Source of the DNA: a virus
DNA length: 24,456 nt
IMG/VR virus record: IMGVR_UViG_3300026519_000062
Location: 1 to 24,456 of that record
Strand: one strand, 5' to 3'
In this document: positions 8,594 through 24,123 of the stretch, in pieces
Position numbering within the stretch: position 1 is the first letter of the stretch
Layout: the number at the start of each line of letters is the position of its first letter
Position numbers and translations under genes: made by a program
The notes under the pieces: generated by a model
What the model saw: only the letters and a program-made list of their open reading frames with translations
Database searches by the model: none
What the model was told of the DNA's origin: nothing

Positions 8594-8632
8594 GATTTTT
8601 TAGTCCTTTTCTCTGTCTTCCGTTTGATTTCT

Positions 8633-8849: not shown

Positions 8850-8861
8850 AAAAAACAAACA

Positions 8862-10358: not shown

Positions 10359-10585
10359 TATTTACCTGCCTTTCTTGTTTTTTCTTCTCTGTTTTTATTA
10401 TCCGCCGGAACCCCCGCCTCAGCTTTATTGTCGCGCAGATCGCCATCGCGAATACGGCGGCGGTAATAGCGGGTCATGACAACTTCATGATCAATTGGAT
10501 CCCCGTCTTTTGACGGCCAGGGCGTGCCGTCCTCAAGCGGCACCAGCCGGCCCTTGACGGGTGAAAGTTTTGTTTTTTTGTTCAT
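10358..10585 (-). CDS. DUF2635 protein (Mu gp38 homologue) with repeat-encoded C-terminus
   Basis: A 75-residue protein located between gp37 and sheath genes as in Mu gp38. The core GRLVPLEDGTPWPSKDGDPI (residues 12-31) followed by HEVVMTRYYRRRIRDGDL is the DUF2635 pattern, a small tail protein of unknown role. Residues 56-64 (EAGVPADNK) are encoded by a fragment of the family 1 repeat, so the charged C-terminal tail seems to have been acquired or rewritten by the repeat. The start has GGAG 7 bases upstream, and both ends overlap neighbours as TAATG. Confidence 0.88.
   Translation of the reverse strand: MNKKTKLSPVKGRLVPLEDGTPWPSKDGDPIDHEVVMTRYYRRRIRDGDLRDNKAEAGVPADNKNREEKTRKAGK
10396..10418. 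repeat. Family 1 repeat fragment (hp3 region, hairpin missing) inside the DUF2635 gene
   Basis: The fragment tattatccgccg joins directly to gaacccccgcc. In the copies at 12404-12450 and 17085-17121 these two blocks are separated by a hairpin and ttcccc, so this looks like a deletion derivative. It is in frame with the DUF2635 coding sequence. Confidence 0.65.
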
Positions 10586-11190: not shown

Positions 11191-11624
11191 CACAATCTCG
11201 CCAATTGGCCGGCATCGGCTTTGCCAACCCGGTCAGATGTCCGGGCCCCATGGCTGGCATCAGTTCCGCCGCCGATTGACGGCGCATCGATGTTGATCTT
11301 GTTGCCGGCAATATTTTCCAGCCAGACAATAATATCCTTACGCGACAGACGCATTTGTTCAGTCGGTTCAGTGCGCGCACCCTGGGCCAGATCAAAACGG
11401 GCAAGATGACAAATTGCACGAACCAGATCACGCGGCGGAATTGCCACCGGCAATTTATATCGGGATCGCAGATAGGTATCAGCCAGAACCGAAGCGTCAT
11501 CAAGCGCGGTCTGGATTTTCACATTATCGACAACCGTTGCGGTACGATCTTCCTGCTCTGAGAGACGGATCATTTCCGTCATCCCAAAGCGGTCAATCAT
11601 ATCGGCAACAGTTGCGTAAGACAT
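11190..11624 (-). CDS. Mu gp36-like protein (DUF1320), head-tail connector
   Basis: A 144-residue protein of the DUF1320 family. Its N-terminus MSYATVADMIDRFGMTEMIR, the helix ALDDASVLADTYLRSRYKLP (residues about 39-58), and RDLVRAICHLARFDL are typical. The fold is that of small helical head-tail connector or adaptor proteins. The ATG at 11624 is preferred over an upstream in-frame ATG because the additional 21 residues are encoded by repeat copy D (they read CQPANGRFAGWL, also seen at the end of the zinc-finger protein). A GGAA lies about 8-10 bases upstream. The 3' end is coupled to gp37 by TGATG. Confidence 0.88.
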   Translation of the reverse strand: MSYATVADMIDRFGMTEMIRLSEQEDRTATVVDNVKIQTALDDASVLADTYLRSRYKLPVAIPPRDLVRAICHLARFDLAQGARTEPTEQMRLSRKDIIVWLENIAGNKINIDAPSIGGGTDASHGARTSDRVGKADAGQLARL

Positions 11625-11636
11625 ATTCTTGTTTCC

Positions 11637-11820
11637 GTTTAGCCATCCGGCGAAACGTCCGTTCGCGGGCTGGCACATTTGTTCCAAATGCTTGCCCTGC
11701 CACGGTGGGAAGGCAAGCTACGGCGCTTTTCCCGTAGTCCGCCAATCGGCGGGGGTTCCGGGGAAGGCCCAAAGGGCCGACGGCGGATAATAAAAGTCGG
11801 TCGCCGGGCCGGATGGCCCG
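11637..11820. repeat. Palindromic mosaic element, family 1, copy D (full length, + orientation)
   Basis: Hairpins in order: gtttagcc-atcc-ggcgaaac (one mismatch), catttg-ttc-caaatg, ctacgg-cgcttttc-ccgtag, ggccc-aaa-gggcc and, in reverse orientation, ccgggcc-ggat-ggcccgg at 11804-11820. Conserved linkers are cgtccgttcgcgggctggc, gcttgccctgccacgg, ggcgggggttccggggaag and cgacggcggataata. The region between the gp36 and gp35 genes (11625-11827) is almost entirely this repeat. Copy E faces it across the gp35-like gene. Confidence 0.88.
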
Positions 11821-11827
11821 GAGAATG

Positions 11828-12385
11828 CTATTTCCTCACAACTCCGATTTCTTCAGGCGTTGGCTTGAAGCCGATGGCTTTTTCCAGTGCTGAAATTTTT
11901 GGCAAACCGGCCCTGGTGAAATCACCTTCACCAAGATTTTTAGCAGCACCTTCAATCGCCGCTTTTCTCATTGCCTTTCCCCTGACACCCGGCTCGCCAT
12001 CTGGCGCATCGCGCTTGATGGCATCAGCAATCTCTTCAGGCATCGGTACAAAACCAAGCAATTCTTTCAAGGCCTTGATATTCGGCTGGCCATCGGCGCC
12101 ATAATCAGCAGGGCCGAGTGCCTTGATGACCTCGTCGATAGAATTCATGCGCAGCGGATTGTCAGCATCAAGCGATGCCAGATCAGGCTCGGCCGCGCTG
12201 GTATTTTCAACCACATCACCTTCAGCACTTGTCGCCGACAAAACAGTAAACATCGGATCATTGTCGAAAATTTCCAATTGATCATCGTTCCAATGGCCAG
12301 CCGGCCATACTGTCTTGGCCGCGTGCGCAACGCCATTGCGGCGAAAGCCTGGCTTGGCACAAATTAGAAGAACATCTTCGGTCAT
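11828..12385 (-). CDS. Mu gp35 / HI1506-like protein with duplicated C-terminal domain
   Basis: A 185-residue protein. Residues 4-49 (DVLLICAKPGFRRNGVAHAA and DDQLEIFDNDPMFTV) match the N-terminal domain of Mu gp35/HI1506. An acidic linker follows, then two tandem copies of a helix-loop-helix unit at about 85-121 and 146-182. Both have a V/A-x-x-x-LG-x-x-D-Y/F pattern, then G-x-P, AL-x-x-x-x-GF and P-x-PEEI. HI1506 has one helix-extended loop-helix domain of this type (family knowledge), so the duplication stands out. The role in Mu is unclear, but the position after the capsid gene suggests a head protein. The ATG has AGGGAA 8-9 bases upstream. The gene is bracketed by inverted family 1 repeats. 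Confidence 0.85.
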   Translation of the reverse strand: MTEDVLLICAKPGFRRNGVAHAAKTVWPAGHWNDDQLEIFDNDPMFTVLSATSAEGDVVENTSAAEPDLASLDADNPLRMNSIDEVIKALGPADYGADGQPNIKALKELLGFVPMPEEIADAIKRDAPDGEPGVRGKAMRKAAIEGAAKNLGEGDFTRAGLPKISALEKAIGFKPTPEEIGVVRK

Positions 12386-12403
12386 AAAATTAATTCCCTT
12401 TTC

Positions 12404-12597
12404 TATTATCCGCCGTCGCATCCTGCGGATGCTTCCCCGGAACCCCCGCCGATTGGTAAAATGCGGAGGCTTTATTCTTGCCAGCGGTTCTTAAACCGCC
12501 GCCAATCCCTACGTGGCAGGGCAATAATTTGGCGACCAGCCAAATTGCAAGCCCGTGAACGGACGCCCGGCCGGATGGCCGGACGGAAAAACAAAAC
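12404..12597. repeat. Palindromic mosaic element, family 1, copy E (full length, - orientation)
   Basis: It fills the gap between major capsid stop (12598) and gp35 start. Read on the plus strand, hairpins are gcatcc-tgc-ggatgc, gcggtt-ctta-aaccgc, aatttggc-gacca-gccaaatt and ccggcc-ggat-ggccgg, the reverse order of copy D, with linkers ttccccggaacccccgcc, gtggcagggcaa and gcccgtgaacggacg. An outer pairing gattgg/ccaatc also encloses the second hairpin. Stems have no sequence in common with the matching stems of D, but all pair. Confidence 0.88.
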
Positions 12598-13491
12598 CTA
12601 CCCAAGCAAAGGAATGACTGAGAGCTCGGCAGAACCTGCCCAGATATTACTGTCGCCTCCATTGATCATCGCTGCCTCAAGTAACCGGCGACCATCGGCT
12701 TCGAGCACAGACGGGACAATTACTTTTCGCGGCCTCAAGCTGATCAACTGACCGGAGCGTTTGCGAATGCTGGCGAACTGGGTTCTGGCCAGTTCAAAAT
12801 TAGCCGCGGTCAAAGGTGCATTGGATTTGTACACCATTTGCCAAAGACCAAAGCCCGCATTGCAGCGACCATCAACGCCCCATTGGTACTGCCCCTTGTT
12901 CCAGACATTGGCGTCGTCTTCCTTGTCCATCGCAACGAGTTTGAAATCCTTGCGTTTTTGATAGACGATTGGCTTCATCACCCTGGTATCGTCAAGCAGG
13001 TACCAGGCAGGGCCGGCACCGGTCTGAAGGTTTGAGACTGAAATCTCATTACCGTTTTCATCCCAACCAGGGTGGTCGGTATCAAAGAAATTCTGGCCAT
13101 CATAGCAGAGGGTCGTCTCGCCTTTTGCCAGTAATGGAAACACCAGCTGATCAGGAAACTCGGCGGCGTCCTGGCCCATTTCACTGGCAATCGGCATAAA
13201 AATACCGATCTGGTCATCTTCAATTTGCGACCGCTTGATACCGATCGTACCTTCAAATTCACGGTTGCGAATGAGATAGGTCTGTGCCGACAGGTCTTTG
13301 ACATAACGATCACCAACCCATTCACGAATGCCCGGCATATCATCCATGCGCGGATATTCATTCATCGCGGTCGTTGACGGCACGGTCATCGCGACCTGAT
13401 CGTAATAGGTTTCGGTCGTTTCAAACCGGGCATTATAGGCGGTTGAAAGACCGGTAAAAATAGACCCTAAGGTCGAAGCATTGATATCCAT
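12598..13491 (-). CDS. T: Major capsid protein (Mu gpT homologue)
   Basis: A 297-residue HK97-fold major head subunit of the Mu gpT family (Mu gpT is 305 residues). Signature stretches are LSTAYNARFETTETYYDQVA near the N-terminus, EYPRMDDMPGIREWVGDRYV, NREFEGTIGIKRSQIEDDQI, GQNFFDTDHPGWDENG, and a C-terminal RPRKVIVPSVLEADGRRLLE. The ATG at 13491 has AAGGA 7 bases upstream. Longer in-frame starts read through repeat copy F. It is separated from the upstream cement gene by copy F and from the downstream gp35 gene by copy E, and it would be the most highly expressed late gene (inference). Confidence 0.95.
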   Translation of the reverse strand: MDINASTLGSIFTGLSTAYNARFETTETYYDQVAMTVPSTTAMNEYPRMDDMPGIREWVGDRYVKDLSAQTYLIRNREFEGTIGIKRSQIEDDQIGIFMPIASEMGQDAAEFPDQLVFPLLAKGETTLCYDGQNFFDTDHPGWDENGNEISVSNLQTGAGPAWYLLDDTRVMKPIVYQKRKDFKLVAMDKEDDANVWNKGQYQWGVDGRCNAGFGLWQMVYKSNAPLTAANFELARTQFASIRKRSGQLISLRPRKVIVPSVLEADGRRLLEAAMINGGDSNIWAGSAELSVIPLLG

Positions 13492-13510
13492 AGTTTTGTC
13501 CTTGATTTCC

Positions 13511-13583
13511 GTCAGACCATCCGGCCTGACGTCCGTTCGCGGGCTGGCGCGCCTTACTCGGCGCTTGCCCTGCCACGGAGGGT
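13511..13583. repeat. Family 1 repeat, copy F (first half, + orientation)
   Basis: It lies between the cement gene stop and the major capsid start. Hairpins are gtcag/ctgac around ccatccgg (13511-13530) and gcgcc-ttactc-ggcgc (13549-13564), joined by gtccgttcgcgggctg and followed by ttgccctgccacggaggg. The second half (hp3) is absent. On the minus strand the hp1 end continues into acggaaatcaaggac, which contains the AAGGA ribosome-binding site of the capsid gene. Confidence 0.85.
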
Positions 13584-13585
13584 TT

Positions 13586-13975
13586 TTAAATTTTAATCCA
13601 CATACCGTCAGCGTCGATTGCTTCCAGCACACCAAGTTTCAATTCACCGCCCGCATTGGTCAGCTGCAAACTATTGTCATCCAGCGCATAGACCGGCTTG
13701 CCGATGTCAGCGTGAGTTGCGCCAGCTACCGGATAACGATAACGACCCCGCAGGCATTCAACGATCTGATCGCCGGTAGCGCCATTGCTGTTGTCTATCC
13801 GCTCCTCGCAAAGCCCCAGCAACGCCACAACACCAGCCGATCCGGCAGGCCGCGCTTCACCGGCGGCATTCACCCCAACAATGGCGCGGCCATAAAACAG
13901 ATCGCCTGCATAGGCTGGAAATCCGTATCGAGCACCAGCCCGTTCCGGTGCTTCAATATCTTTGGTTGCGGCCAT
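13586..13975 (-). CDS. Capsid cement/decoration-like protein (DUF2190-like)
   Basis: A 129-residue protein. The N-terminal part reads AYAGDLFYGRAIVGVNAAGE and the middle contains GVVALLGLCEERIDN and GKPVYALDDNSLQLT. The C-terminus has LGVLEAIDADGMWIKI, the beta-rich pattern (GxVxxxD-x-x-G-x-W/V) typical of DUF2190-type cement proteins that stabilise capsids. Its location between the protease/scaffold gene and the capsid gene fits a decoration protein. Mu itself lacks an obvious equivalent at this place, while many alphaproteobacterial and Burkholderia Mu-like phages have one (from memory). The ATG overlaps the protease stop as TAATG. Confidence 0.7.
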   Translation of the reverse strand: MAATKDIEAPERAGARYGFPAYAGDLFYGRAIVGVNAAGEARPAGSAGVVALLGLCEERIDNSNGATGDQIVECLRGRYRYPVAGATHADIGKPVYALDDNSLQLTNAGGELKLGVLEAIDADGMWIKI

Positions 13976-14547
13976 TAGTTGAGCTCCTTGATTGTTTTGG
14001 AAGTTTTGGCGAATTCTTTCGGATCAATGCCCATAAGCTGGCAGACCTGTTCATCAGCTGCCGAGATTGATGTGTTCTCGTCGATTTTGCGACCGCCCAG
14101 AGAACCGGCATTAATTGAAGGCATGACCTTCAATTCGGTCTCGACACTTTCAGGGTCTTTCATATGGCGGGCGATGTAATGATCGCGCAAGGAAGGCACG
14201 AGCGTTGTCGCTTCGATCGCAGCATCAATGACTGATGTGGCCTTGTCTTTGGCGGCGGAGGTGCTGAGTGTGACCAGTTGAGAATTAAGAACCTTGATTT
14301 GTTCCTGCAGGCCATCAACCACAGAAGCATCCTCTTGCTTGACCGGCTTGCGGGCATTAATGGCCACAACCAGATCATCTGCGCTGGCATCATCTTCAAC
14401 GCCGAGCGCCTTGCGAATGGTGCCCATCATCGCCAGCACATTTGTCAATTCGGTAATCTTGGCGTTGAGCATTTTTACCGCCTCGGTAATGGCGGCATCA
14501 TCAGCACCATCTTCCAGGCCGAGCAATTTTAGCAATGCTTCGTTCAT
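13975..14547 (-). CDS. Z: Scaffold protein from internal in-frame start (Mu gpZ-like)
   Basis: Codon 153 of the protease gene is an ATG (14547) preceded by AAGGA with 8 bases of spacing, a better ribosome-binding site than that of the full gene. It would make a 190-residue protein starting MNEALLKLLGLEDGADDA and rich in helix-forming A, E, K and L residues. It contains EQIKVLNSQLVTLSTSAA (coiled-coil-like) and ends with SKTIKELN. Mu gpZ and lambda Nu3 are made the same way, from a start inside the protease gene (family knowledge). The proposal is supported by the boundary between the protease domain and the helical region at exactly this codon. Confidence 0.8.
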   Translation of the reverse strand: MNEALLKLLGLEDGADDAAITEAVKMLNAKITELTNVLAMMGTIRKALGVEDDASADDLVVAINARKPVKQEDASVVDGLQEQIKVLNSQLVTLSTSAAKDKATSVIDAAIEATTLVPSLRDHYIARHMKDPESVETELKVMPSINAGSLGGRKIDENTSISAADEQVCQLMGIDPKEFAKTSKTIKELN

Positions 14548-15003
14548 GGGAACTTTCCTTTTATGTAGAGATTTCAGGGTTTCAATGTTGGGAGAATTAA
14601 CCAGGGCAACGCTACTTATCTGCATAACCTTGTGCGGCTTGGATTTTGTGCAAAGCAATGCGGGCGAAACAAAACCGTAGGCCCGATCTTCAACCAGTTT
14701 CCTGCCCGTTTGCGTCCACTCTACCTTGCCCCAAAGCTCATCGCCGCGGGCTTGCATTTCGACAATCCAGCCTCGGGCATGAGCAGGCCGGCCACTGTCA
14801 CCAGCCAATTCTGTCGCATGATTTTCATCAACCGGGATTTTGCGGCCGTTCATCGCCTTAATAATCACATTAAGATCAGGCGCAATAAACGGACCTCGTC
14901 CATCAACGCCATTGAAGGCACTGGATGGAATAAGCTGTATCCATTCGGGGACACCTGACATTGAGGTGACTGATTGGGCTATATGGCAGAGAAGTTTTTC
15001 CAT
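13975..15003 (-). CDS. I: Prohead protease with fused scaffold (Mu gpI homologue)
   Basis: A 342-residue protein. Residues 1-145 form the Mu-like protease domain, with PVDENHATELAGDSGRPAHA at about 57-76, WGKVEWTQTGRKLVEDRAYG at 91-110, FVSPAL and SVALVNSPNI at 131-140. His62 and a serine in the SPAL or SVAL segment are likely catalytic residues (inference from the pattern). The C-terminal 190 residues are helical and charged (scaffold). An internal start at 14547 should make the scaffold alone. The ATG at 15003 has AAAGG 5-6 bases upstream. The protease is expected to cleave the scaffold and perhaps capsid N-termini during head maturation. Confidence 0.92.
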   Translation of the reverse strand: MEKLLCHIAQSVTSMSGVPEWIQLIPSSAFNGVDGRGPFIAPDLNVIIKAMNGRKIPVDENHATELAGDSGRPAHARGWIVEMQARGDELWGKVEWTQTGRKLVEDRAYGFVSPALLCTKSKPHKVMQISSVALVNSPNIETLKSLHKRKVPMNEALLKLLGLEDGADDAAITEAVKMLNAKITELTNVLAMMGTIRKALGVEDDASADDLVVAINARKPVKQEDASVVDGLQEQIKVLNSQLVTLSTSAAKDKATSVIDAAIEATTLVPSLRDHYIARHMKDPESVETELKVMPSINAGSLGGRKIDENTSISAADEQVCQLMGIDPKEFAKTSKTIKELN

Positions 15004-15037
15004 GATGACCTTTTACGTCACTCATGGCTTTTTAATT

Positions 15038-15059
15038 CATGCCCGCCGATACAGGCATG
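15038..15059. repeat. Short hairpin between protease and G genes, twin of 2172-2193
   Basis: The stem catgcc / ggcatg with a 10-base loop beginning cgccg matches the hairpin at 2172-2193 in stem, spacing and loop start, and in the preceding tt. It lies in the 73-base gap between G (stop at 15077) and the protease start. No other repeat element is present in that gap. Confidence 0.5.
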
Positions 15060-15076
15060 TTTTACGATCGTTAATA

Positions 15077-15580
15077 TCAGCGGCGGGAATGGCGCTTGAT
15101 AAACCCGAACACCACCTTGGCGATCATCACCTCGTCATCGGCGGATATGCCAAGGAAAGGCCGCGCCGGAATGGTGACTGATTTGGCCCCAACCGTGCGT
15201 CCATTAATCGAAAAGATCAAGTGGGTGCCGTTTTTTGGTTTGATCTCAGCGCCGAACTGGTGAACGGCCGCATAGATAACATTGGTGCCAATGGCAACTT
15301 CATCACGTGATGGGCTTGAGGAAATTGAATCCCGCAACCGGCCGCTTTCAGTCAGGATGCGGGAATTCTTTTTGCCGGCCGCATAAAAAGGATTGAGCGT
15401 TTGCCAGGGCGAACCATCCGGTGCGACCTGTGATGTAAATCTCCTTTGGGTGGATCCGACAACGCCGGTGCCAATCGCCGCCATGATCGGCGTGGTGTTT
15501 TTCATCAAGCCCTGCAGGCGGGCAAAATCCCGCCGGACTTCTTTGTCATCAACTCTGATTATAATGGATGCACCGGTCAT
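15077..15580 (-). CDS. G: Virion morphogenesis protein (Mu gpG homologue, tail completion)
   Basis: A 167-residue protein with the full signature of the phage virion morphogenesis family: DGSPWQTLNPFYAAGKK at about 55-71, ILTESGRLRDSISS, VAIGTNVIYAAVHQFGAEI and IPARPFLGISADDE. Mu gpG is a tail-attachment (neck) component found on heads and tails. The ATG at 15580 is preferred on homology (MTGASIIIRVDD). A GTG at 15589 immediately follows a possible small upstream gene. Shine-Dalgarno signals are weak for both, so coupling to upstream translation may matter. Confidence 0.92.
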   Translation of the reverse strand: MTGASIIIRVDDKEVRRDFARLQGLMKNTTPIMAAIGTGVVGSTQRRFTSQVAPDGSPWQTLNPFYAAGKKNSRILTESGRLRDSISSSPSRDEVAIGTNVIYAAVHQFGAEIKPKNGTHLIFSINGRTVGAKSVTIPARPFLGISADDEVMIAKVVFGFIKRHSRR

Positions 15581-15589
15581 GATTGACAC

Positions 15590-15691
15590 TTACTGTAAAA
15601 TATATATGTTATCAAACGGGCGCGCCGAGCCACCGGGTAGCAGAAGTAATTCGGGGATGTCCCGACCCCCCGGCGCGCCTCTACTATTCAT
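15590..15691 (-). CDS. Possible 33-residue small protein between F and G
   Basis: The 97-base gap between F and G contains one open frame: ATG at 15691, only a few bases after the F stop, to TAA at 15592-15590, which abuts the alternative GTG of gene G. The translation is MNSRGAPGGRDIPELLLLPG then a short tail ending NIYILQ. GAG lies 7 bases upstream. It is proline- and glycine-rich and I do not recognise it. It overlaps a strong inverted repeat, so it may equally be chance coding through a structured spacer. Confidence 0.25.
   Translation of the reverse strand: MNSRGAPGGRDIPELLLLPGGSARPFDNIYILQ
15619..15679. repeat. Long inverted repeat in the F-G gap
   Basis: ggcgcgccg (15619-15627) and cggcgcgcc (15671-15679) are perfect inverted copies. 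A second short stem, cgggg-atg-tcccg, lies inside at about 15652-15664. The unit is unlike families 1 and 2 except for the shared ggcgcgcc block. It is flanked by AT-rich sequence (tatatatgtt) on one side, so it may be a transcription or mRNA-processing structure. No clear T-run follows on the minus strand. Confidence 0.5.
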
Positions 15692-15695
15692 AATT

Positions 15696-16775
15696 TTACT
15701 CGACAACCTTTTTAAGGCGGCGCATTTTTTTTATTTTTGACGGCCTGCCTATGTGCAATGTGGTCATAAGCAGTTCGTTAAATCGGGTCACTTTAAATCC
15801 GGCAATATGCCATTTTCCATCCACAAGATACAAAGTGCTCAGCCGCCCACGATCATCGCGAATTAAATCTGCAATCGTTGTTTGGGCCGCGGCCGCATAT
15901 TCCACGGCTGTTAAATTCTTTCGGTGTGAATGATCCAGTATCGTCTGAACACTTAGCCTAACCACCGATTTTTTTTCAAGACCCAGCTCAGCAATAATGT
16001 CATCAGGGACGCTGGCGATCGGCACTGTTGTATTCACCGGCAGTTCACCGGCCAGGGCGCGAATTGCAAATGCTTCCACCTGGTTGATGGTTGCAATCTT
16101 TTGTTCCGGCCTGCCACCCGAAAGCCATCGTTGCCCAGGGTTCCATTCAAAGCCCGGATCCACCCCGCGCGGTATATCGCTTCCCGACTGATCAAAATTT
16201 GGTGCCTTGTCCGGACCATTCTTGCCCTGGCGTTTTAGATCGGCATCAGAGACCGGCGTTACAAAACATCCGCAATGCCAACCATTGGGGGGATAATTTG
16301 TCGACCAGAACGGATCATTATAGCGATAGGTATCACCATCCCAGGCAAGATGTTGCTTGCGCGGATGATTTGAACCTGAATGATTATATTGCCAGAATGG
16401 AAACGCTTGCAGGGTTTCAGGCTTGGTCAGCTCATAATAACGACCGGCCGCATGGGCAGAGCGCAAATTGGTTTCAAATATAATGCGGGTGCGCCAGTTT
16501 CGACCGCCCTTATATTCCCAGCCGTGTTTTTCAACGATGGCGTCGAAGCCTTTGCGAAACTCTTCCAGTGTGGTGCCCTGTTCAAGCGCCTTTTCAATCT
16601 CCTTCCTGAAATCAGCGACGATTGCATCGCTTGCAGCACCGGCCACCATGAATGAATGGGCATGGGCCGCCGCATAGACCTGTCGCCAATGGGTTGTCGG
16701 CACATTAATTTTCTGTCTGAGAAACGAAATCGCCGCCTCAGGGGGTAAATCAAGAGCTTTGGCCTCAACGCCCAT
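15696..16775 (-). CDS. F: Minor head protein (Mu gpF homologue) with C-terminal PBECR-like domain
   Basis: A 359-residue protein. Residues about 55-175 form the Mu F-type head morphogenesis domain, with WRTRIIFETNLRSAHAAGRY at 94-113 and the signature PPNGWHCGCFVTP at 162-174. After a linker, residues about 270-345 (LSVQTILDHSHRKNLTAVEY, then GKWHIAGFKVTRF and ELLMTTLHIGRPS) resemble the Phage-Barnase-EndoU-ColicinE5/D-RelE (PBECR) nuclease-like domains reported at the ends of Mu F proteins. The ATG at 16775 is preferred. A TTG at 16793 is possible. A 280-base repeat-containing gap separates it from the portal gene, where compact phages usually have an overlap. Confidence 0.9.
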   Translation of the reverse strand: MGVEAKALDLPPEAAISFLRQKINVPTTHWRQVYAAAHAHSFMVAGAASDAIVADFRKEIEKALEQGTTLEEFRKGFDAIVEKHGWEYKGGRNWRTRIIFETNLRSAHAAGRYYELTKPETLQAFPFWQYNHSGSNHPRKQHLAWDGDTYRYNDPFWSTNYPPNGWHCGCFVTPVSDADLKRQGKNGPDKAPNFDQSGSDIPRGVDPGFEWNPGQRWLSGGRPEQKIATINQVEAFAIRALAGELPVNTTVPIASVPDDIIAELGLEKKSVVRLSVQTILDHSHRKNLTAVEYAAAAQTTIADLIRDDRGRLSTLYLVDGKWHIAGFKVTRFNELLMTTLHIGRPSKIKKMRRLKKVVE

Positions 16776-16950
16776 GTCTAAACAACCCCACAATCAAATT
16801 TGAAAGGGTCTTTAAAGGGGTACATTCGTTTTTTGGCGACGCTCGCGTGGTTCGCAACGCAAACTTGTGCGAACGCGCCTGTACGGGGCTTAAAATCGAT
16901 TTGCGATCTGTCCGGTTCATTGGTTTAATTCGCCTTTTAATGGTGTCCGC
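16776..16950. other. Non-coding part of the portal-F gap
   Basis: This 175-base stretch lies between repeat copy G and the F gene. It has a hairpin gttcgca / tgcgaac (16850-16856 and 16868-16874) extended by cgcg/gcgc, close to a tttttt run at 16829-16834. I see no convincing promoter. One 51-codon open frame crosses it on the minus strand but has no ribosome-binding site. It may be a further, unrelated repeat unit. Confidence 0.4.
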
Positions 16951-17055
16951 TTCGCCATCCGGCGAACCGCCCGGCCAGGAGCAGCCGGAGCGAAGAGCGA
17001 CCGTGGCTTATGCCACGCCCTCGCGGAGCGTTTGGCGAAGCCATTCGCGTGAGCG
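16951..17055. repeat. Chimeric mosaic element, copy G (family 1 start joined to family 2 end)
   Basis: It opens with the family 1 hairpin ttcgcc-atcc-ggcgaa and part of its linker, then changes to the second half of family 2: gcgaagagcgaccgtggc, the invariant gtggc-ttat-gccac, gccctcgcggagcg, hairpin tggc-gaa-gcca and the terminal cgcgtgagcg. The terminal block ends at 17055, the base next to the portal stop codon (17056-17058). The hybrid order shows that parts of the two families recombine. Confidence 0.8.
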
Positions 17056-18741
17056 TTAATCACTATGAACCCCGCCATTATTTAATCCGCCGTCGTCTTC
17101 GACTTCCCCGGAACCCCCGCCTATATCATCGATCAGCGAAGCCTGACCGGCCAGATGCGCAAGCGCCATACCCCTTGCCATCGCGTCTGAAAGCTCATCG
17201 CCTGGCAGATTTAACGCGGTCAACCGATTGGCAGCATCGTGCAAATCAGTGGCGGCCATTAATTCCTTGCGCACTCTTTCAGTCAGCCCGCCCAGCGCGC
17301 CAGCCGCGTCTTGCTGTAACTGAACGGATAGCTGGTCAATGCTCTGTTCAACCGGCTGGCGAGCCTGACGTGATGAAAGCAGCTTGGCAAAATTAAGTTT
17401 CGGTGTTGGCTTTTTCAATTTTGGCGGGGGTTCCGGGGAAGGGTTCGAAGAACCCGACGGCGGATCAGAAACGTCAACCCTGCCGCCAACCAGTTCGGCC
17501 CCTTCTTGCGGATCTGGAATGCCAAGCCTCGAGCGCATCCAGGTTGCTTCGGCGGTCAATCCTTGCGGGCCGAGTTTTTCAAATGCTTCTGCGAATTCAC
17601 CAAGAGCAACTTCATCGGGTCGCCCGATATGAACCTTTGGATAATAGTCCTGCGGCCCGAAGTTGAATGCCACCATATTAGGGACAACCTGTTGGTTGAT
17701 AGATGCTGATGTTAGAATGGCATCGGCGCGCTCAATATCTTCCTGTACTTCACGGTGAACATTGGCCTGGGCTTGCGATGATCCGTCTTCCGTGGTCATG
17801 GTCTGGCCGACAACCAGTTTTGAGACTTCCTTGTTTAGAAAACCTGCGCGCCTTTCATAAAGGTCTGTAGATGTACCCTTTGCCGCGACCTCTTCGAATT
17901 CAATCAGCATCGATGTCGGAATGATTGCGGCACAGTCGCCGGCAATATTGGAGACGGCCCGCCATAAAACATCCTTTTCCTCTTCGGTGGCCTTTGGCCC
18001 GTATTTGCCAACGCGGATTGGTGCGCCAAAATTCTGGGCAAACATGGCCCAGTCATTAAGAGTGAATGATTTATACATCCATGCCCAGGATGCAACGCGT
18101 GCAATGCCTGCTCTTATTGTCAGACCGGATTTGGCCTTGTGACGATGGACAACAAATTTGTGTGGAATGAGTGGCTCACCGTCAACGCCTTCGCGCAATA
18201 ATACGGTCTCACCATCGTTGCGGTCAAAGGTGAACCAGCGTTGTGGGCGATAGATGAATTCGCCTGGGCAAAGGTGGCCGCCGTGAACCCGCCAGTCAAT
18301 TTCCATGACCGACATACCCTTGCCGATCGCATCCAGCATATCGAACATGCCGGCCTGCAACACCCCGTCATCAATCCATGAGCGAACAAAATCGGCATGT
18401 TTTTTGTGCTCGGCACTATCAGATGCAGGCTTGACGGTAATTGGCAACTGGGAAACCGAACGCTTGCGGGTGGATATCACACTCAAATAATGCGGGTCGC
18501 GCTCTTCAATGTCTTCAGCCAGTTCAAAATAATTAAGCGGTTCACCATTCGCCGCCTCGCGGTGAATATTGGCCAGCCGCCGCGGTGTCATGCCATCGGC
18601 AGGATGACCGGAAATTACCGGCCGCACGCCGCCAATGGTTGGCGCGGCGTGGTGGTTTTCCAGTTCTTTCTTTTTCACCAGCATGCCAAGCGCATCACGC
18701 AGGCCGGTGGTGAACTTTGCCAGGCTTGTTGTTCTAGCCAT
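17056..18741 (-). CDS. Portal protein (Mu gp29 homologue, DUF935) carrying two repeat-encoded segments
   Basis: A 561-residue portal, the dodecameric ring for DNA entry and tail attachment. Family signatures include MTPRRLANIHREAANGEPLN at about 50-69, ELAEDIEERDPHYLSVISTR, the GMSVMEIDW segment, and TLNDWAMFAQNFGAPIRVGK. Residues about 426-440 (PPSGSSNPSPEPPPK) and 541-553 (GGGSGEVEDDGG) are encoded by the same family 1 unit in opposite orientations. The first lies in the linker before the C-terminal helical domain and the second at the C-terminus. The ATG at 18741 has GAGG 8 bases upstream and overlaps the terminase by 8 bases. The frame is intact. Confidence 0.93.
   Translation of the reverse strand: MARTTSLAKFTTGLRDALGMLVKKKELENHHAAPTIGGVRPVISGHPADGMTPRRLANIHREAANGEPLNYFELAEDIEERDPHYLSVISTRKRSVSQLPITVKPASDSAEHKKHADFVRSWIDDGVLQAGMFDMLDAIGKGMSVMEIDWRVHGGHLCPGEFIYRPQRWFTFDRNDGETVLLREGVDGEPLIPHKFVVHRHKAKSGLTIRAGIARVASWAWMYKSFTLNDWAMFAQNFGAPIRVGKYGPKATEEEKDVLWRAVSNIAGDCAAIIPTSMLIEFEEVAAKGTSTDLYERRAGFLNKEVSKLVVGQTMTTEDGSSQAQANVHREVQEDIERADAILTSASINQQVVPNMVAFNFGPQDYYPKVHIGRPDEVALGEFAEAFEKLGPQGLTAEATWMRSRLGIPDPQEGAELVGGRVDVSDPPSGSSNPSPEPPPKLKKPTPKLNFAKLLSSRQARQPVEQSIDQLSVQLQQDAAGALGGLTERVRKELMAATDLHDAANRLTALNLPGDELSDAMARGMALAHLAGQASLIDDIGGGSGEVEDDGGLNNGGVHSD
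17085..17121. repeat. Family 1 hp3 unit inside the 3' end of the portal gene (- orientation)
   Basis: atccgccgtc, then hairpin gtc-ttc-gac, then ttccccggaacccccgcc. It encodes the GGGSGE..DDGG tail of the portal. The flanks match those of copies D and E exactly, while the stem differs. Confidence 0.85.
17423..17465. repeat. Family 1 hp3 unit inside the portal gene (+ orientation)
   Basis: ggcgggggttccggggaa, then hairpin gggttc-gaa-gaaccc, then gacggcggat. It encodes the proline/serine linker at about residues 426-440 of the portal. Together with 17085-17121 it forms an inverted pair enclosing about 300 bases, which encode the portal C-terminal domain. Confidence 0.85.
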
Positions 18742-20380
18742 TTAGTTGACCTCTCAAATTGGCACCGCCCAATCGACGTTGTGGGGTTAATCGTTCATGG
18801 CGTTGGCTGCGCTCTTCGCTACCGGCCCGCGCGCTCTCATATTCATATTCAATAATTTGCTGGCGTGATGCGAACCAGGCGAGCATGCCGGCAATGGCGC
18901 TGTCGCCATGGCGATCAAGCCCGTCTGCGCCTTTGTAACGGGCATCGTCCGGCACTTTGATGATCCCGTTGACATAGGCCAGTGCCTGGTGATCCCGAAT
19001 TATGTCATCGTCAGCCGGTAGCCTGACTGTCTCGTCAGCAAAGGCCTCGGTATAGGCTGGCCCGTTTTCCTGGTACCAGCCGACAGAGAGTTTGACTTCG
19101 ACAATACTGTCACCAAATTCCAATGCTGCGGCTTCGGCAACATAGGCACCGTTGCCGGTCGCATCCAACGCTCCGCCGCCCATGCGTGGCATCCGGTCAA
19201 CACAATAAAATATCGTGTCGCGCTGTTGATCAAACGGCACATTGCGCATTTCCAGAATAAGCACACAGCGGCGAATATTGTCCTGGCCGATTTCAAAAAT
19301 CAGCAATACCGATGCATCGCCGGTACGGGCAAAGTCAGATCCGAATACATGGGTGTGTTTGGGATCAAGCGCCTTTAAATACGGCTTTAAATTATATTGA
19401 CACCAATCGCGCTGCGCCGCCTCGCGAATTTCCTTGTCGTAGGATTTGAACGCATCGGATAATCTCCAGCGCACAACCGGAATACCCTTGCGGGTGATGC
19501 GCTCGATCTCGACACGGGTAAGTGCTGCACCTTCGCTGTCGGCCGGTATGGCATCCAACTCCTGCTTCATCGCAGCATCGCGGCTACCGTAGGATTTGCG
19601 GATTTTCAATTCCCAGTCGCGCTCGGCCTCTTTCGACCAGACCAAACCTTTGATCGGGCAAACGCGTTTATAAAGACCATTATCCACGGCCAATTGAAAC
19701 GGGATGTGATGAACCTTGAAATTATTTTTGCCGGCGCGGGCTTCAGTGATCAGCTCATTAAAGGCATTTAAAATTCCGTTATGTGTCGAGATCACCCGCA
19801 CTTTACCGCCCCAGATCAACAGGGCGTTCACCGCATCAATCACCTCACGCACATCGCGGTGGTATGCAGCCTCATCGATAACCACAACACCTTGTAGACC
19901 TCGAATATTGGCAGGATTTGAAGACAAAGCTTCCACACGAAAGCCGGATGCGAATGTTACACGATAGGCCGATATGTATTTTGTTGAGCCGTCTTTTTGC
20001 TCATCAGCAAACAAAAAATCTTCAATCTCGACCAGCTCCTTGGCAACGACCCTGGCAAAGTGCGCCACATAGCCAATGAACTCCCGTCCCTTGTCTTTGG
20101 TATCACCAATATAAAAGACATTATCACCACCAGCCGAGCGTTTGGCCGCGGCGATCAGTGTATCACCGAGAGCTTCGGCAAAGGTTATGCCGGTACGACG
20201 GCCTTTTTCTGCAATCTTCAGATCAGATTGATCGGCAAGCCAATCGGCCTGGTGTTTCATCAATATGCCATCGGCAAGCGGATCGAGATCGTCGGGGATC
20301 TCACTGCCACGCAACAGTTCTTCCGGCAATGCATCCAGATCGCGAGGTATTACCGGCGTTTCGTTTTCTCTCACGCTCAT
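18734..20380 (-). CDS. Terminase large subunit (Mu gp28 homologue)
   Basis: A 548-residue packaging motor with ATPase and nuclease domains. Visible motifs are a Walker A-like KGRRTGIT (59-66), Walker B VVVIDEA (165-171) followed by AYH, and a coupling motif VISTHNG (196-202). The nuclease acidic residues are GSDFARTGD (Asp349), ALDATGNG (Asp406) and HGDSAIAG (Asp493). It cuts and packages Mu DNA with flanking host DNA by headful (family knowledge). The start ATG overlaps the small terminase stop (ATGA), with GAGGGA upstream, and the end overlaps the portal. Its first codons read cgtgagagaaaa, like the boundary sequence next to family 2 repeats. Confidence 0.95.
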   Translation of the reverse strand: MSVRENETPVIPRDLDALPEELLRGSEIPDDLDPLADGILMKHQADWLADQSDLKIAEKGRRTGITFAEALGDTLIAAAKRSAGGDNVFYIGDTKDKGREFIGYVAHFARVVAKELVEIEDFLFADEQKDGSTKYISAYRVTFASGFRVEALSSNPANIRGLQGVVVIDEAAYHRDVREVIDAVNALLIWGGKVRVISTHNGILNAFNELITEARAGKNNFKVHHIPFQLAVDNGLYKRVCPIKGLVWSKEAERDWELKIRKSYGSRDAAMKQELDAIPADSEGAALTRVEIERITRKGIPVVRWRLSDAFKSYDKEIREAAQRDWCQYNLKPYLKALDPKHTHVFGSDFARTGDASVLLIFEIGQDNIRRCVLILEMRNVPFDQQRDTIFYCVDRMPRMGGGALDATGNGAYVAEAAALEFGDSIVEVKLSVGWYQENGPAYTEAFADETVRLPADDDIIRDHQALAYVNGIIKVPDDARYKGADGLDRHGDSAIAGMLAWFASRQQIIEYEYESARAGSEERSQRHERLTPQRRLGGANLRGQLNG

Positions 20381-20955
20381 TTATCCCTCGGCTTCACACC
20401 CAGAAATTCAGTCTTGAGCTGTTCAATGCGTTGTTTGGAAAGACCCGCCTCAACACTAACTTTGTCAATCACTTCATCGACTTTACCTTCAATCATAGCT
20501 TCCAGTTTGGCGCGGCGATCACTGGACATTTTTTCAGCAGCCACGGCTGACTTGAGCGCGCCGGCCAATTCCATGGCCTGCTTGGGTGAAAAACCAGCCT
20601 CGCCGCCTTTGTCCAGCAATTCGGAAATCAATGTCTTGATCATTTCCGCAAGCGTGATGGTGATATCGTCACTTTGACCAGGCTCCATCCTATCCGTCAG
20701 CACGGCGGCAATTTCGCGGGTCTGGCTGGATCGGCGCAACATATCGGCCAGGCGAATTGAATAGCGATTGAAAGCGGAACTTGAAACCGGGTCAATGCCA
20801 AGCATTGCCAGCTTTTCATTGAATTCGCTGCAAATCTGGATTTGTGTCAGGTTTTGCTCACGCAATTCAAAAGCGGCCCACTGAACCGCCTCATCGGCCT
20901 CAGCCGGCAACATATCAATTTTGGAAAGGCGACCACGGCCTCTTCTTTTACTCAC
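20377..20955 (-). CDS. Small terminase-like protein (Mu gp27 homologue, DUF3486)
   Basis: A 192-residue protein of the DUF3486 family. It opens with a basic RRGRGRLSKIDMLPAEADEA, then helix-turn-helix-like segments (LTQIQICSEFNEKLAMLGID, SSSAFNRYSIRLADML) for DNA recognition, and a helical C-terminal oligomerisation region. It sits directly before the large terminase and overlaps it by 4 bases, so it is taken as the DNA-recognising packaging subunit. The GTG start (20955) has AGGA 6 bases upstream. Both the start codon and the ribosome-binding site lie within the end of repeat copy H. Confidence 0.9.
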   Translation of the reverse strand: MSKRRGRGRLSKIDMLPAEADEAVQWAAFELREQNLTQIQICSEFNEKLAMLGIDPVSSSAFNRYSIRLADMLRRSSQTREIAAVLTDRMEPGQSDDITITLAEMIKTLISELLDKGGEAGFSPKQAMELAGALKSAVAAEKMSSDRRAKLEAMIEGKVDEVIDKVSVEAGLSKQRIEQLKTEFLGVKPRDK

Positions 20956-21021
20956 GACTGATCCTCGCTTTGCTCGGGTCTGTGTTGCGCGCCAGAATGC
21001 TGGCGGTTCGATCTTCGCTCA
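20951..21021. repeat. Family 2 repeat, copy H (first half)
   Basis: It opens ctcacgactg at the start codon of the small terminase gene and contains the hairpin gccag-aatg-ctggc preceded by gcgc and followed by ggttcg, as in copies A, C and J. The outer hairpin, ctcgctttgctcggg, is degenerate. It occupies most of the 80-base gap between the gp26-like and small terminase genes. Confidence 0.75.
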
Positions 21022-21035
21022 CTGTCCAATGCATA

Positions 21036-21335
21036 TTATTGCTCCGGTGACGGGCGCGTGATGCCTTCAATGACGATGCGGCGCTTGACGTGATCGAGAC
21101 CGGAATTGGTAATAACGGCAATCATCACCGTGCCAGCCAGCCTCGTCGTGACCGCATCGACAGCGGCCATCGCCTTGAATTGGTTTCGAACCCAATCGCG
21201 TGTTTCGTCAATGCCGAAGGTTTCAAGCAAGGCTTGGGCGAGTGCTTCATTGAGCGAGTATGAATTTTCTTCAGCCAATGCTCTCAGAATGATCAAACGT
21301 GCGTCTTCGGTACGGCGTTTTTTGTAATCGCTCAT
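21036..21335 (-). CDS. Mu gp26-like small protein (winged-helix-like, VpaChn25_0724 family)
   Basis: A 99-residue protein with ARLIILRALAEENSYSLNEA (12-31), ALLETFGIDETRDWVRNQF and TVMIAVITNSGLDHVKRRIVIEG, a pattern matching the small gp26-type protein that precedes DUF3486 in Mu-like phages. The helices and short strands look like an ArsR-type winged helix, but the role is unknown. The ATG overlaps the DUF2730 stop (ATGA), and AAGGA lies 7 bases upstream. Confidence 0.8.
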   Translation of the reverse strand: MSDYKKRRTEDARLIILRALAEENSYSLNEALAQALLETFGIDETRDWVRNQFKAMAAVDAVTTRLAGTVMIAVITNSGLDHVKRRIVIEGITRPSPEQ

Positions 21336-21691
21336 TTGGTATTCCTTTCCAGCAAAACCACTTCCATGCGGTTGACGGTTGAGCGGGTGCCCTTCATCGC
21401 CTCGGTCATGGTTTTCATATCACCAGCCAATCTCTCCATGGCAATTTCCAATTGGTGCTGGCCTTCCTTGGTTGGCAAGTGCTGCAATTCGCCTTCAACC
21501 TTGGCAAGCCTGCTCTCGGCTTTATCCTGGCGCTCATCCATTTTGGCGAGCGCGTTGCTGTACTTTTCCTCAAGTTTTGTCAGCGCGATTTCATTGTGGC
21601 GTGATCTGGATGTTAGCCAGGAATAAACAGTCGTGCCAAGCGCTATGACGATTGCTATCAAGCTGAAATAATCTTTAAAAACATCAACCAT
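21332..21691 (-). CDS. DUF2730 membrane-anchored coiled-coil protein (Mu gp25-like)
   Basis: A 119-residue protein with one N-terminal membrane segment (about 8-27, YFSLIAIVIALGTTVYSWL) followed by a long charged coiled coil (ALTKLEEKYSNALAKMDERQ and onward) with heptad-like L/M spacing. This is the DUF2730 layout found between lysis and packaging genes in Mu-like phages. A link to lysis, such as an inner-membrane spanin-like function, is possible but unproven. The start has AGAGAA just upstream. Confidence 0.82.
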   Translation of the reverse strand: MVDVFKDYFSLIAIVIALGTTVYSWLTSRSRHNEIALTKLEEKYSNALAKMDERQDKAESRLAKVEGELQHLPTKEGQHQLEIAMERLAGDMKTMTEAMKGTRSTVNRMEVVLLERNTK

Positions 21692-21700
21692 TATTCTCTT

Positions 21701-22024
21701 TCATCTTCTCTTCTCTTCGCTCAACCATCCGGTTGACCGCCCGTTCACAGGCTGGCATCCCGTGCCGGGATTTGCCTTGCCACGGATGGGGCGCTCACGC
21801 GCTGTTTGGCAATGGATGCATCTTTGGGCGAAGGGTGCGGCCTGCAGGCGGGCCGGTGAAATCGGTTCGTCGCAGTCGGTACATTCTCTAGGCCCCGGCT
21901 TGCCGCTGACAAGCCACGCCTCTTGTCCCACCCCGGCAACTTTACGGCAGATTGCATCAATACCGGCATTACGCTCGGCTTCGGCGCGCTGATCGGCCAG
22001 CTCTCGATCCTGTTCACTTAGCAT
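21701..22024 (-). CDS. DksA/TraR-type C4 zinc-finger protein with repeat-encoded C-terminal tail
   Basis: A 107-residue protein with Cys48-x2-Cys51 and Cys69-x2-Cys72 (ECTDCDEPISPARL then QRCIHCQ), the single zinc finger of DksA/TraR family phage proteins. These can bind RNA polymerase in the secondary channel (family knowledge). The acidic coiled-coil tip of full DksA is short or absent here. Residues about 77-107 (reading CQPVNGRSTGWLSE) are encoded by family 1 copy I, and such proteins normally end shortly after the second cysteine pair, so the tail appears to be added. The start overlaps the holin stop (TGATG). Confidence 0.88.
   Translation of the reverse strand: MLSEQDRELADQRAEAERNAGIDAICRKVAGVGQEAWLVSGKPGPRECTDCDEPISPARLQAAPFAQRCIHCQTARERPIRGKANPGTGCQPVNGRSTGWLSEEKRR
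21722..21790. repeat. Family 1 repeat, copy I (first half, + orientation), inside the zinc-finger gene
   Basis: Hairpins caacc-atcc-ggttg (21722-21735) and atcccg-tgc-cgggat (21757-21771) are joined by gcccgttcacaggctggc and followed by ttgccttgccacgg. It encodes the last 25-30 residues of the zinc-finger protein and ends just before the DUF2730 start region. Confidence 0.82.
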
Positions 22025-22557
22025 CAGGCGGTGCCATCCATTTTTTCGATGGAACGGCGATGGACATAATATCCGGTAACACCCGCCTGCAATGTCAGCA
22101 TTGGAATGACCAGCCCAACCAGCACACCGGCACCGGTCAAATCAATTGATCCACCATCTGCAAGGCTCCAGACGACCTTGATAATGACAGCCATTAAACC
22201 AAGGCACTCAACACCAAAGAAAAGCGCGTTCATCGGCCGCCAGATACGGGTAACGAGCGAGGATGAATTGCGATCACCGGCAATCAGCGCATGATAGGAT
22301 ATGGTCGCATCGGCCGTAGCGCGGGCAATTTCGGCAAAGTCGGTCTCGACCTTACGCATGATTGTCTCGACTTTGCGCGGCTCGGCCTTATATTTTTCAA
22401 CAATGGATTGTTCACGCGGAGCAACCCCAAGACCTTCGGCAATGGAGCTGACAACCTTACCCGCCATTGCGCCACTTTTGCCACCTTTGCGATTGAGCAG
22501 TTCAACCACGATTGGTAGACCAAATTTCAAGGCAATGGCACCCAATGAAACAGACAT
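22024..22557 (-). CDS. Holin (GTA_holin_3TM-like)
   Basis: A 177-residue protein with hydrophobic segments at about 4-20, 109-131 and 143-164 and a soluble helical middle (YKAEPRKVETIMRKVETDFA). The TRIWRPMNALFFGVECLGL segment is characteristic of the 3TMS holins first noted beside gene transfer agents and common in alphaproteobacterial phages. It should make the inner-membrane hole that releases the endolysin. The ATG at 22557 is preferred because an AAGGAAA lies upstream. Longer in-frame starts read into repeat copy J. It is adjacent to the endolysin gene, as expected. Confidence 0.88.
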   Translation of the reverse strand: MSVSLGAIALKFGLPIVVELLNRKGGKSGAMAGKVVSSIAEGLGVAPREQSIVEKYKAEPRKVETIMRKVETDFAEIARATADATISYHALIAGDRNSSSLVTRIWRPMNALFFGVECLGLMAVIIKVVWSLADGGSIDLTGAGVLVGLVIPMLTLQAGVTGYYVHRRSIEKMDGTA

Positions 22558-22572
22558 GATTAATTTCCTTTC

Positions 22573-22632
22573 TCTCACGGCCATATTGGCCTGCGAGGCG
22601 CGCCGCATAAGCGGCGGCTCACTGTTTGTTCG
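22573..22632. repeat. Family 2 repeat, copy J (short)
   Basis: It fills the gap between endolysin stop (22633) and holin. It begins ctcacggcc, has hairpins ggcca-tat-tggcc and gccgc-ataa-gcggc separated by tgcgaggcg, and ends in ggctcactgtttgttcgc. On the minus strand the end continues as gtgagagaaaggaaa, providing the ribosome-binding site of the holin, exactly as copy A does for gp45. Confidence 0.83.
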
Positions 22633-23565
22633 CTATATTCTGCGAATGAATGATTTGAACTCGTCACGGTAAAACCACGCCAGATAAGTCAACCCCACGG
22701 CAAGAATGGCCAACCCGCCATAGAGCAGCCAGTCGGAGGCCTGCGAGGCCTGATCCGTTGCAAGACTGCCGCCAGCAGCTCCACTGCCGGTTGTTCCAAC
22801 AGCCGCGGCTTCTCGTTTGGCATTGGCCAGCCGGATGATTTTTGCCCGTGTGGCCGGACCAAGAATGCCATCAATGAGTAGATGATGCTCACGCTGCAAC
22901 CGGATCACCGCCGATTTGGTTTGCTTACCCCAGAAGCCATCCGGCTTGCCACAGGAATAGCCAATCGCATTGAGCATTTGCTGATCTTGCATTAATTGTT
23001 TTGATTGTTCACGGCCTTGCGCGACACCACGGGTCGCTTGGCCTGCCACGGGGGGAGCACCATGCCGGTTGGGAGAAATTTTCAAATTGCCATAATCACC
23101 ATACAGCAATAATTTTGCTTCAGCCGCGCGCCGACGCACCAGCCCGCGCAGTTTGCGGCCACGCGCGGTTACCGCCGTGGTGCGTAGCCGTTTGGCCGAT
23201 TTTGCCCGCGCACCTGAACGATAGAATTTTGCCCATGACCATGTGAGTGATTTGGGGCCGCAATTAAATGATACGGATTTTCCGGCATCGATTGCATGAA
23301 TTGGGGCGGTAGAGCCAAGCGCCTTGCCAACGCCCACTCCATATTCTTCACGTAGAGCCTTATCCAGCAGCTGATCATTTTCACTAAGTGTAATGTGATC
23401 ACCCATTCGGATTTTGCGACCATGTTTTTTCAACCACCAGTCCCGCGCGGTTACAGAGCGATTGGTAAAGCCGGTGCCGATGGTGATGATACCGACCGGA
23501 TCGCGATAGGCTTTGGAAACAAACCCCTCATGTTTACGGATAAAAGCAGCACCCTTGATACTCAT
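22633..23565 (-). CDS. Endolysin: GH24 lysozyme with peptidoglycan-binding and C-terminal membrane segments
   Basis: A 310-residue muramidase. Glu13, Asp22 and Thr28 (HEG..RDP..ITIGTG) have the same spacing as the T4 lysozyme catalytic triad Glu11/Asp20/Thr26. The lysozyme domain covers about 1-155. A linker at about 165-190 contains a repeat-encoded segment. A peptidoglycan-binding domain follows at about 187-246 (QMLNAIGYSCGKPDGFWGKQ, then GILGPATRAKI). A small-residue linker and a membrane segment at about 280-298 (WLLYGGLAILAVGLTYLAW) end the protein, followed by a basic tail. The ATG at 23565 has GGGG upstream and overlaps the secreted-protein stop (ATGA). Confidence 0.92.
   Translation of the reverse strand: MSIKGAAFIRKHEGFVSKAYRDPVGIITIGTGFTNRSVTARDWWLKKHGRKIRMGDHITLSENDQLLDKALREEYGVGVGKALGSTAPIHAIDAGKSVSFNCGPKSLTWSWAKFYRSGARAKSAKRLRTTAVTARGRKLRGLVRRRAAEAKLLLYGDYGNLKISPNRHGAPPVAGQATRGVAQGREQSKQLMQDQQMLNAIGYSCGKPDGFWGKQTKSAVIRLQREHHLLIDGILGPATRAKIIRLANAKREAAAVGTTGSGAAGGSLATDQASQASDWLLYGGLAILAVGLTYLAWFYRDEFKSFIRRI
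23006..23056. repeat. Family 1 hp2 unit inside the endolysin linker (+ orientation)
   Basis: gttcacggccttgc, then hairpin gcgac-accacgg-gtcgc, then ttggcctgccacgggggg. Flanks match copies D, F and I with a few changes. It is in frame and encodes about residues 171-187 (GQATRGVAQGREQ region) between the lysozyme and peptidoglycan-binding domains. Confidence 0.72.
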
Positions 23566-23921
23566 GACTTCACCCCTTTTTCCCTGATAATAATCCTGCC
23601 GAGGATGAGCCGGTGCAGTTTGCGCCCCGCATAAAATGCACCGACCCGACAATTATTTACAAACACCGTGACTATTACCGCTTTTGGGAACCGGGCTGAG
23701 GTGACAAAAATCAGTTGATCAGGCTTCGGCAATCTGGACGGGGGCGGAAATGAATTGAACAGCCGCATATAGTTGGCCGCCACATCACCCGAGGCCAGAA
23801 TGATCTGCGCCGAGGGCAGGCTTTTGGCAATGCGCGACTTGACCGTCTGAAGCGAAAGGCACTCGGCCATCGCTGGTTGTAACGAGGTCAAAAGAAATAT
23901 AAAAGCCAGCAGATGCCGCAT
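23562..23921 (-). CDS. Secreted protein of unknown function upstream of the endolysin
   Basis: A 119-residue protein with a clear Sec signal peptide: basic MRH, hydrophobic LLAFIFLLTSL, and a likely cleavage after AMA (residues 17-19). The mature part is small and basic, with two cysteines (about 21 and 90), a FPPPSRLPKP proline segment, and a strand-like PKAVIVTVFVNNCRVGAFYA region. I do not recognise a family. Its translation is coupled to the endolysin by ATGA overlap, so it probably acts in the periplasm during lysis or blocks superinfection (inference). The start has only a weak GGAAAG about 10 bases upstream. Confidence 0.75.
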   Translation of the reverse strand: MRHLLAFIFLLTSLQPAMAECLSLQTVKSRIAKSLPSAQIILASGDVAANYMRLFNSFPPPSRLPKPDQLIFVTSARFPKAVIVTVFVNNCRVGAFYAGRKLHRLILGRIIIREKGVKS

Positions 23922-24123
23922 GTGAGTTTCGCTTTCCGTTGAACCAAATCTTGCGCTTCTCTACGATCAACGTGCGATTTGATTATTTCCCCCGTGCCAG
24001 TTTTGGGGCAAGCGCAAGCATTTGAAAAATGCGCCGGCCCGTAAACGGACGCTCAACCGGAGGGTTGAGCGGAAAATCAAGAACTCAAAATTATGCTATT
24101 CGGCCATCCCGCTTCATGCCCGT
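23922..24123 (-). promoter_or_regulatory. Gap between Mor-like gene and late genes, candidate late promoter region
   Basis: Two hundred non-coding bases separate the Mor-like gene from the lysis operon. In Mu, Mor/C family activators bind dyad sites upstream of middle and late promoters, so this is a sensible place for the activated promoter (inference). A weak -35/-10 pair might be ttgccc and aaataat around 24008-23983 on the minus strand. I cannot pick out an activator dyad with confidence because repeat copy K occupies much of the gap. The remainder shows no gene. Confidence 0.35.
24018..24080. repeat. Family 1 repeat, copy K (first half, - orientation)
   Basis: Hairpins gcattt-gaa-aaatgc (24018-24032) and gctcaacc-ggag-ggttgagc (24051-24070, an 8-bp perfect stem) are joined by gcccgtaaacggac. 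The outer end continues as ggaaaatcaagaac, like the outer flank of copies E and F. This is the only copy close to the presumed late promoter. Confidence 0.82.

Follow-up and report, generated by a model that had tools for sequence, protein, structure and literature searches.

What kind of element is a hairpin whose stems change from copy to copy while the linkers between its arms stay the same, and what is it doing in a phage genome? The question is raised by a 24.5-kb virus contig (IMG/VR record IMGVR_UViG_3300026519_000062; all 24,456 nucleotides, here called the window) whose genes, nearly all on the minus strand, encode a Mu-like portal, gpF, a protease, the gpT head protein, a sheath, and an endolysin (Pfam). 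We think it quite likely that the window holds two short, nonautonomous palindromic repeat families, M1 and M2, which have spread through the chromosomes of an alphaproteobacterial group and entered a Mu-like phage, and whose in-frame copies would be translated. The occurrence of such copies inside protein genes, three times in the window, was not part of the preliminary description of this DNA and is its main feature.

Two palindromic modules in a Mu-like phage

The preliminary description treated the repeats as one family. They resolve into two modules, M1 (about 87 nt, four helices) and M2 (about 42 nt, one hairpin), for which covariance models R2 and R1, respectively, were built. These are independent of each other, M1 being found without M2 in thirteen of the genomes searched. 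M1 is laid out as CCGT-GGCA-P2-AA-P3-TGCCA-P2′-GYGA-ACGG followed by P4; helix P1 pairs CCGT with ACGG, P2 pairs GGGC with GCCC or variants, P3 is a variable hairpin, and P4, the hairpin originally called hp1, has a GGAT loop. M2, originally hp3, consists of GGCGGGGGTTCCGGGGAA, a variable hairpin, and GACGGCGGAT. An isolated P4-like hairpin (CCGGGCCGGATGGCCCGG; 11804 to 11821, plus strand, read directly from the sequence), with the rest of M1 missing, suggests that modules can separate.

There are seven full or partial M1 matches in the window (R2; E values from 5e-20 to 3e-5). Three intergenic copies on the minus strand precede genes: one (11627 to 11709; 89.3 bits) lies just upstream of a start codon at about 11626, another (13501 to 13582; 84.5 bits) is directly upstream of the gene for the major head protein gpT (ATG at 13488; Pfam), and a third (21709 to 21789; 79.4 bits) is upstream of the gene at 21332 to 21691. 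Two more, at 12507 to 12594 (88.4 bits) and 23988 to 24080 (39.5 bits), are on the plus strand, intergenic and antisense to the phage genes. A truncated copy comprising the P4 hairpin part occupies 16939 to 16992 (minus strand; 27.4 bits; E = 3e-5). The seventh copy, without P4, is in frame within the endolysin gene (22633 to 23652, minus strand; lysozyme and PG_binding_1 domains by Pfam), where it encodes PPVAGQATRGVAQGRE between the lysozyme and peptidoglycan-binding domains (22994 to 23055, minus strand; 29.7 bits, E = 1e-5; translation). The linker between these domains is about equally long in relatives without M1, so the element replaced linker sequence rather than simply adding to it.

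M2 is present in four copies (R1) plus one scar. Two copies are intergenic, one with the hairpin GGCCC-AAA-GGGCC (11748 to 11795, plus strand; 67.4 bits) and one with GCATCC-GCA-GGATGC in front of the gene starting at 12385 (12401 to 12450, minus strand; 71.7 bits). The Mu-like portal gene (17056 to 18741, minus strand; Portal_Mu PF06074, E = 1e-100) contains the other two, both in frame and past the conserved portal domain (amino acids 73 to 408), one in each orientation. The copy near the C terminus has the hairpin GTC-GAA-GAC and encodes GGGSGEVEDDGG (17078 to 17121, minus strand; 58.7 bits; translation); the other, antisense with the hairpin GGGTTC-GAA-GAACCC, encodes SDPPSGSSNPSPEPPP (17423 to 17472, plus strand; 68 bits; translation). 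The in-frame sites in window genes are thus three, one M1 in the endolysin linker and two M2 in the portal tail, and the remaining copies, outside these two genes, are intergenic. At the scar (10401 to 10418, minus strand; direct sequence reading), the hairpin has been deleted and both ends are retained (GGCGGGGGTTCCGGCGGA).

The stems and shared linkers given earlier for hp3 hold at all four sites, with the linker GGCGGGGGTTCCGGGGAAG exact at each (11748, plus; 12450, minus; 17121, minus; 17423, plus). The claim that the hp1 loop is kept does not: CCATCCGG varies, and the copy near 24050 to 24075 has a different loop.

Several variants of this architecture were seen in other records. Long M1 forms share a GTGAGCGCACGTGTTTACGCGCAAGCGAACGA-like domain in the P3 loop (L181:2259-2383, L187:5061-5184, and L184:8236-8359). 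The idea that long P3 loops are nested M2 insertions was rejected, as the loops inspected contain other variable sequence. In genome G002, an M2 sits within an M1-like remnant. M2 also forms tandem arrays, with periods of 53 nt and about 51 nt (L047, G003:C255; L042, G002:C90). The phage itself carries another, unrelated palindromic repeat set, with CTCACGG...CGTGAG ends and a GTGGCTTATGCCACGCCC core, at window positions 2744 to 2880, 8053 to 8225, 8624 to 8850, 16990 to 17060, 20978 to 21030, and 22565 to 22640.

Dispersal and in-frame copies in protein genes

It had been suggested that a covariance model be searched against alphaproteobacteria, and that copies restricted to the window would speak against a family of this kind. 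The search returned dispersed, structured palindromic repeats of the mobile-element sort, with many copies in alphaproteobacterial metagenome-assembled genomes (MAGs). A genome-wide pattern scan placed M2 almost exclusively in such MAGs (Hyphomicrobiales OFTM311, Rhizobiaceae 354-166, and three "Dive" bins); a further M2 match, in a gut MAG (L017, Candidatus Caccousia), is probably chance coding sequence. M1 is narrowly distributed: searched with R2, 15 of the 61 OFTM311 relatives carry it, OFTM311 itself with 51 copies (51, 24, 24, 14, 12, and 11 in six MAGs), and in a thin sample across the order of OFTM311 just 2 genomes out of 297 do. Its ends are sharp: across 124 matches, flank information is near zero outside CCCT...AAACAAA, and since the flanking bases share no information past these ends, the copies are dispersed insertions.

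The density of M1 in the phage, 7 copies in 24 kb, is far above that in the bacteria that carry the element (51 in 3.5 Mb). M1 was absent from eight terminase-related phage contigs searched with R2, and exact-pattern scans of viral contigs gave no further carrier of either module; one candidate from a looser pattern scan (L252) was rejected as a chance match inside a terminase gene. By blastn, window positions 11600 to 17500 matched PLSDB plasmids only at a phage gene and at one unannotated place. In the openly licensed literature searched, neither family is described.

A scan of the surrounding sequence in all six frames placed M1 copies inside long open frames. Clear protein genes contain 27 copies. 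Two are antisense and 25 sense, the latter without exception in frame 0. Length is divisible by 3 in 24 of these 27, compared to 37 of 122 others, and frame 0 is free of stops in 26 of 27, compared to 55 of 122. Were each of three open frames as likely as the others, seeing 24 of 26 in a single one would have a probability of about 5e-10, a figure that is too strong, as some copies share ancestry; in particular, some of the copies in PcrA may be orthologous, and the coding counts are thus not fully independent. The genes that carry M1 encode, by profile search, a PcrA/UvrD helicase, UvrB, hydantoinase A/B, and an Rhs-type protein; one more resembles a biotin-dependent carboxylase, by eye only. 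M2 likewise occurs in frame in host genes. The encoded peptides follow the patterns PSVAGQ..ATSESASPRTDG..DG.AEN for M1 (PSVAGQ...SPRTDG) and GGGSGE..DGG for M2.

In-frame, stop-free copies are found in conserved, unrelated genes that also have orthologs without them, as in PcrA. M1 is present in PcrA in eight genomes, in seven of them in the sense orientation at or beside the site between the motifs DEYQDTN and VGDDDQS and in one antisense. Nine relatives with an empty site have 26 amino acids between the motifs; with a sense M1, the distance is 63 to 119 amino acids in those genomes in which both motifs could be measured. Still other genomes have different inserts here, and the site is an insertion hot spot. 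Some of these other in-frame inserts (L229, L230, L231, L168, and L166) encode SSPHPEPVEG-type and RSEASGADSATEA-type peptides and apparently represent further element families. UvrB has up to three M1 copies per gene; a single uvrB gene in genome G009 (L145:5037-8630) has three, one of them antisense and all in frame.

We imagine that ribosomes read through the in-frame copies, giving peptides that are hydrophilic and probably disordered, and that insertion at tolerant loops, linkers, and tails would do little harm, as with the palindromic elements of Rickettsia.

Stem covariation and its possible origins

The compensatory stem changes noted in the preliminary description are borne out, and all stems pair strongly. 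For M2 (21 copies), standard pairs make up 88.3% of the pair cells, compared to 52.5% after shuffling, and six of six pairs have changed on both sides. Among 122 distinct M1 copies the values are 92.9% and 69.0%, with double changes in 23 of 24 pairs (618 cells versus 168 shuffled), and pairing falls to 32 to 37% when the partner is shifted by 1 to 3 columns. The 122-copy alignment was fitted to the model structure and is hence biased towards it; a nine-copy MAFFT alignment gave the same pairing picture.

It is more difficult to say what covariation of this kind means. The preliminary description held that it implies selection on folded RNA or single-stranded DNA, and the PcrA site makes that step unsafe. 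In five genomes (L222, L233, L243, L248, and L149), the pcrA gene has a perfect inverted repeat of 12 to 18 bp with a 3-nt loop; in a sixth, the repeat is 10 bp. The 3′ arm encodes the conserved host sequence PNLCCVG and the 5′ arm tracks each genome's own codons, and the repeat is missing in genomes without an insert. This hairpin adjoins M1. Its host coding arm is not part of the mobile element, and yet the complementarity is perfect and changes from genome to genome. Template switching is reported to create and repair such stems (PMC8794818), and because a hairpin with a host coding arm covaries just as template switching predicts, covariation cannot simply be read as selection on RNA. With less assurance than for translation, we imagine that the complementarity of the changing stems arises largely by one arm being rewritten from the other through template switching during replication, and that the unpaired linkers may be what preserves the identity of the elements. 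The argument draws on one site and would be compatible with selection on structure as well.

One can envision, tentatively, a stronger version, in which M1 is a palindrome that spreads itself and template switching keeps rewriting the arms of its hairpins, while also copying neighboring host coding sequence into new ones; strong, RNA-like covariation would then appear without any selection on RNA, and the family would spread because its translation does no harm, with phages serving as vectors. Alternatively, the covariation might come purely from selection on structure in a mobile intermediate, RNA or single-stranded DNA, with no share for template switching. Stems are paired in coding and noncoding copies alike, as such selection would have it, but the covarying arm at the PcrA site is a conserved host coding segment outside the mobile element, and we consider this account rather doubtful.

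Mobilization, function, and known palindromic elements

How do these elements move? The hairpin architecture of M1 and M2 would fit REP-like sequences that a RAYT, or another Y1 transposase working on hairpins in single-stranded DNA, mobilizes in trans, and the preliminary description proposed looking for a linked Y1/HUH transposase. REPs are dispersed palindromes like M1, and intragenic REPs have been reported in the same kind of repair genes (uvrA, uvrB, and UvrD/REP helicase genes; PMC3733652), so that repair-gene targeting is not itself new. However, REPs are 20 to 40 bp long and carry GTAG or CGTC as a terminal tag (PMC3733652), whereas M1 is about 87 nt, begins with CCCT, finishes with AAACAAA, and has no such tag. 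As regards a MITE, an alignment of 124 M1 copies showed no inverted repeats at the ends. No match to the Y1 family (PF01797) was found in the window or in 13 of the 17 records searched, including OFTM311 (G001) with its 51 copies and the well-assembled G009, within the limits of MAG incompleteness. Of 17 records, 4 have a Y1 transposase, and of 12, 4 have a reverse transcriptase; neither enzyme tracks M1, again within the limits of incomplete MAGs. Two Y1 genes do share contigs with M1 copies (G015:C16 and G012:C128), but they look like a common orphan type; the G015 gene is not flanked by M1 or its ends and has its own AACTGTCC repeats. The Y1 link was rejected on inspection of these sequences, and mobilization of this kind seems unlikely.

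M1 might instead be a structured regulatory RNA, such as a leader or something like an sRNA, preserved because selection acts on its fold, with the phage copies just upstream of start codons controlling translation. Its four helices covary, its internal loops are conserved, and several sense copies in the window lie directly 5′ of start codons, as one would expect of such an RNA. The same element, however, is found in both orientations, between unrelated flanks, and inside coding genes of unrelated kinds, where it uses a single reading frame; no Rfam family matched the window above gathering thresholds, and the PcrA hairpin shows that a helix with a host coding arm covaries as well. A regulatory role for M1 is quite improbable. 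That in-frame copies are removed from the RNA or skipped by the ribosome, as mini-introns or in the manner of the byps of Magnusiomyces mitochondria (cited in PMC6649704), is hardly credible. Stable hairpins, and inserts between the catalytic motifs of conserved enzymes, might invite it, but skipped inserts would need neither a length divisible by 3 (24 of 27 coding copies) nor a stop-free frame, and the insertion points are variable loops and tails.

M1 and M2 belong to a known class, that of coding palindromic repeats; Rickettsia is where selfish palindromes in frame are best known. The Rickettsia palindromic elements (Ogata et al. 2000, 2002; summarized in PMC10969869 and PMC6649704) are, like M1 and M2, short palindromes in frame in unrelated protein genes of alphaproteobacteria, and in M1, as in them, the frame is fixed and the peptide similar from site to site (of 27 copies, 25 are sense, each in frame 0). 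M1 differs in its two-part, four-helix fold, its Hyphomicrobiales-like MAG hosts, and its presence in a phage. The RPE1 model (TIGR01045) gave nothing above its cutoff in seven host genomes, and the insert peptides had no NCBIfam match at E values up to 10. By analogy, M1 and M2 would work like the Rickettsia elements, but as the family compared, RPE1, showed no homology, we do not file them as such.

Other comparisons are looser. The RIME/ABC elements of rhizobia, to which the repeats had been likened, are mosaic palindromic repeats in Hyphomicrobiales and are known as intergenic; we liken them to M1 and M2, and set them apart, by description alone. Among mitochondrial DNAs, the double-hairpin elements of fungi have stems that change, and we know of no fixed-frame coding use of mitochondrial hairpin elements. 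These mobile elements, and the repetitive hairpin-forming elements of sponges, are mitochondrial, unlike M1 and M2 (PMC2800124).

Our findings suggest that two families unrelated, as far as could be detected, to the RPE1 model behave as in-frame palindromes in alphaproteobacteria other than Rickettsia. The PcrA hairpin, a natural case of strong covariation in which conserved coding sequence fixes one arm, is a warning for methods that equate covariation with RNA function. Finally, a phage that carries M1 and M2 could move the elements.
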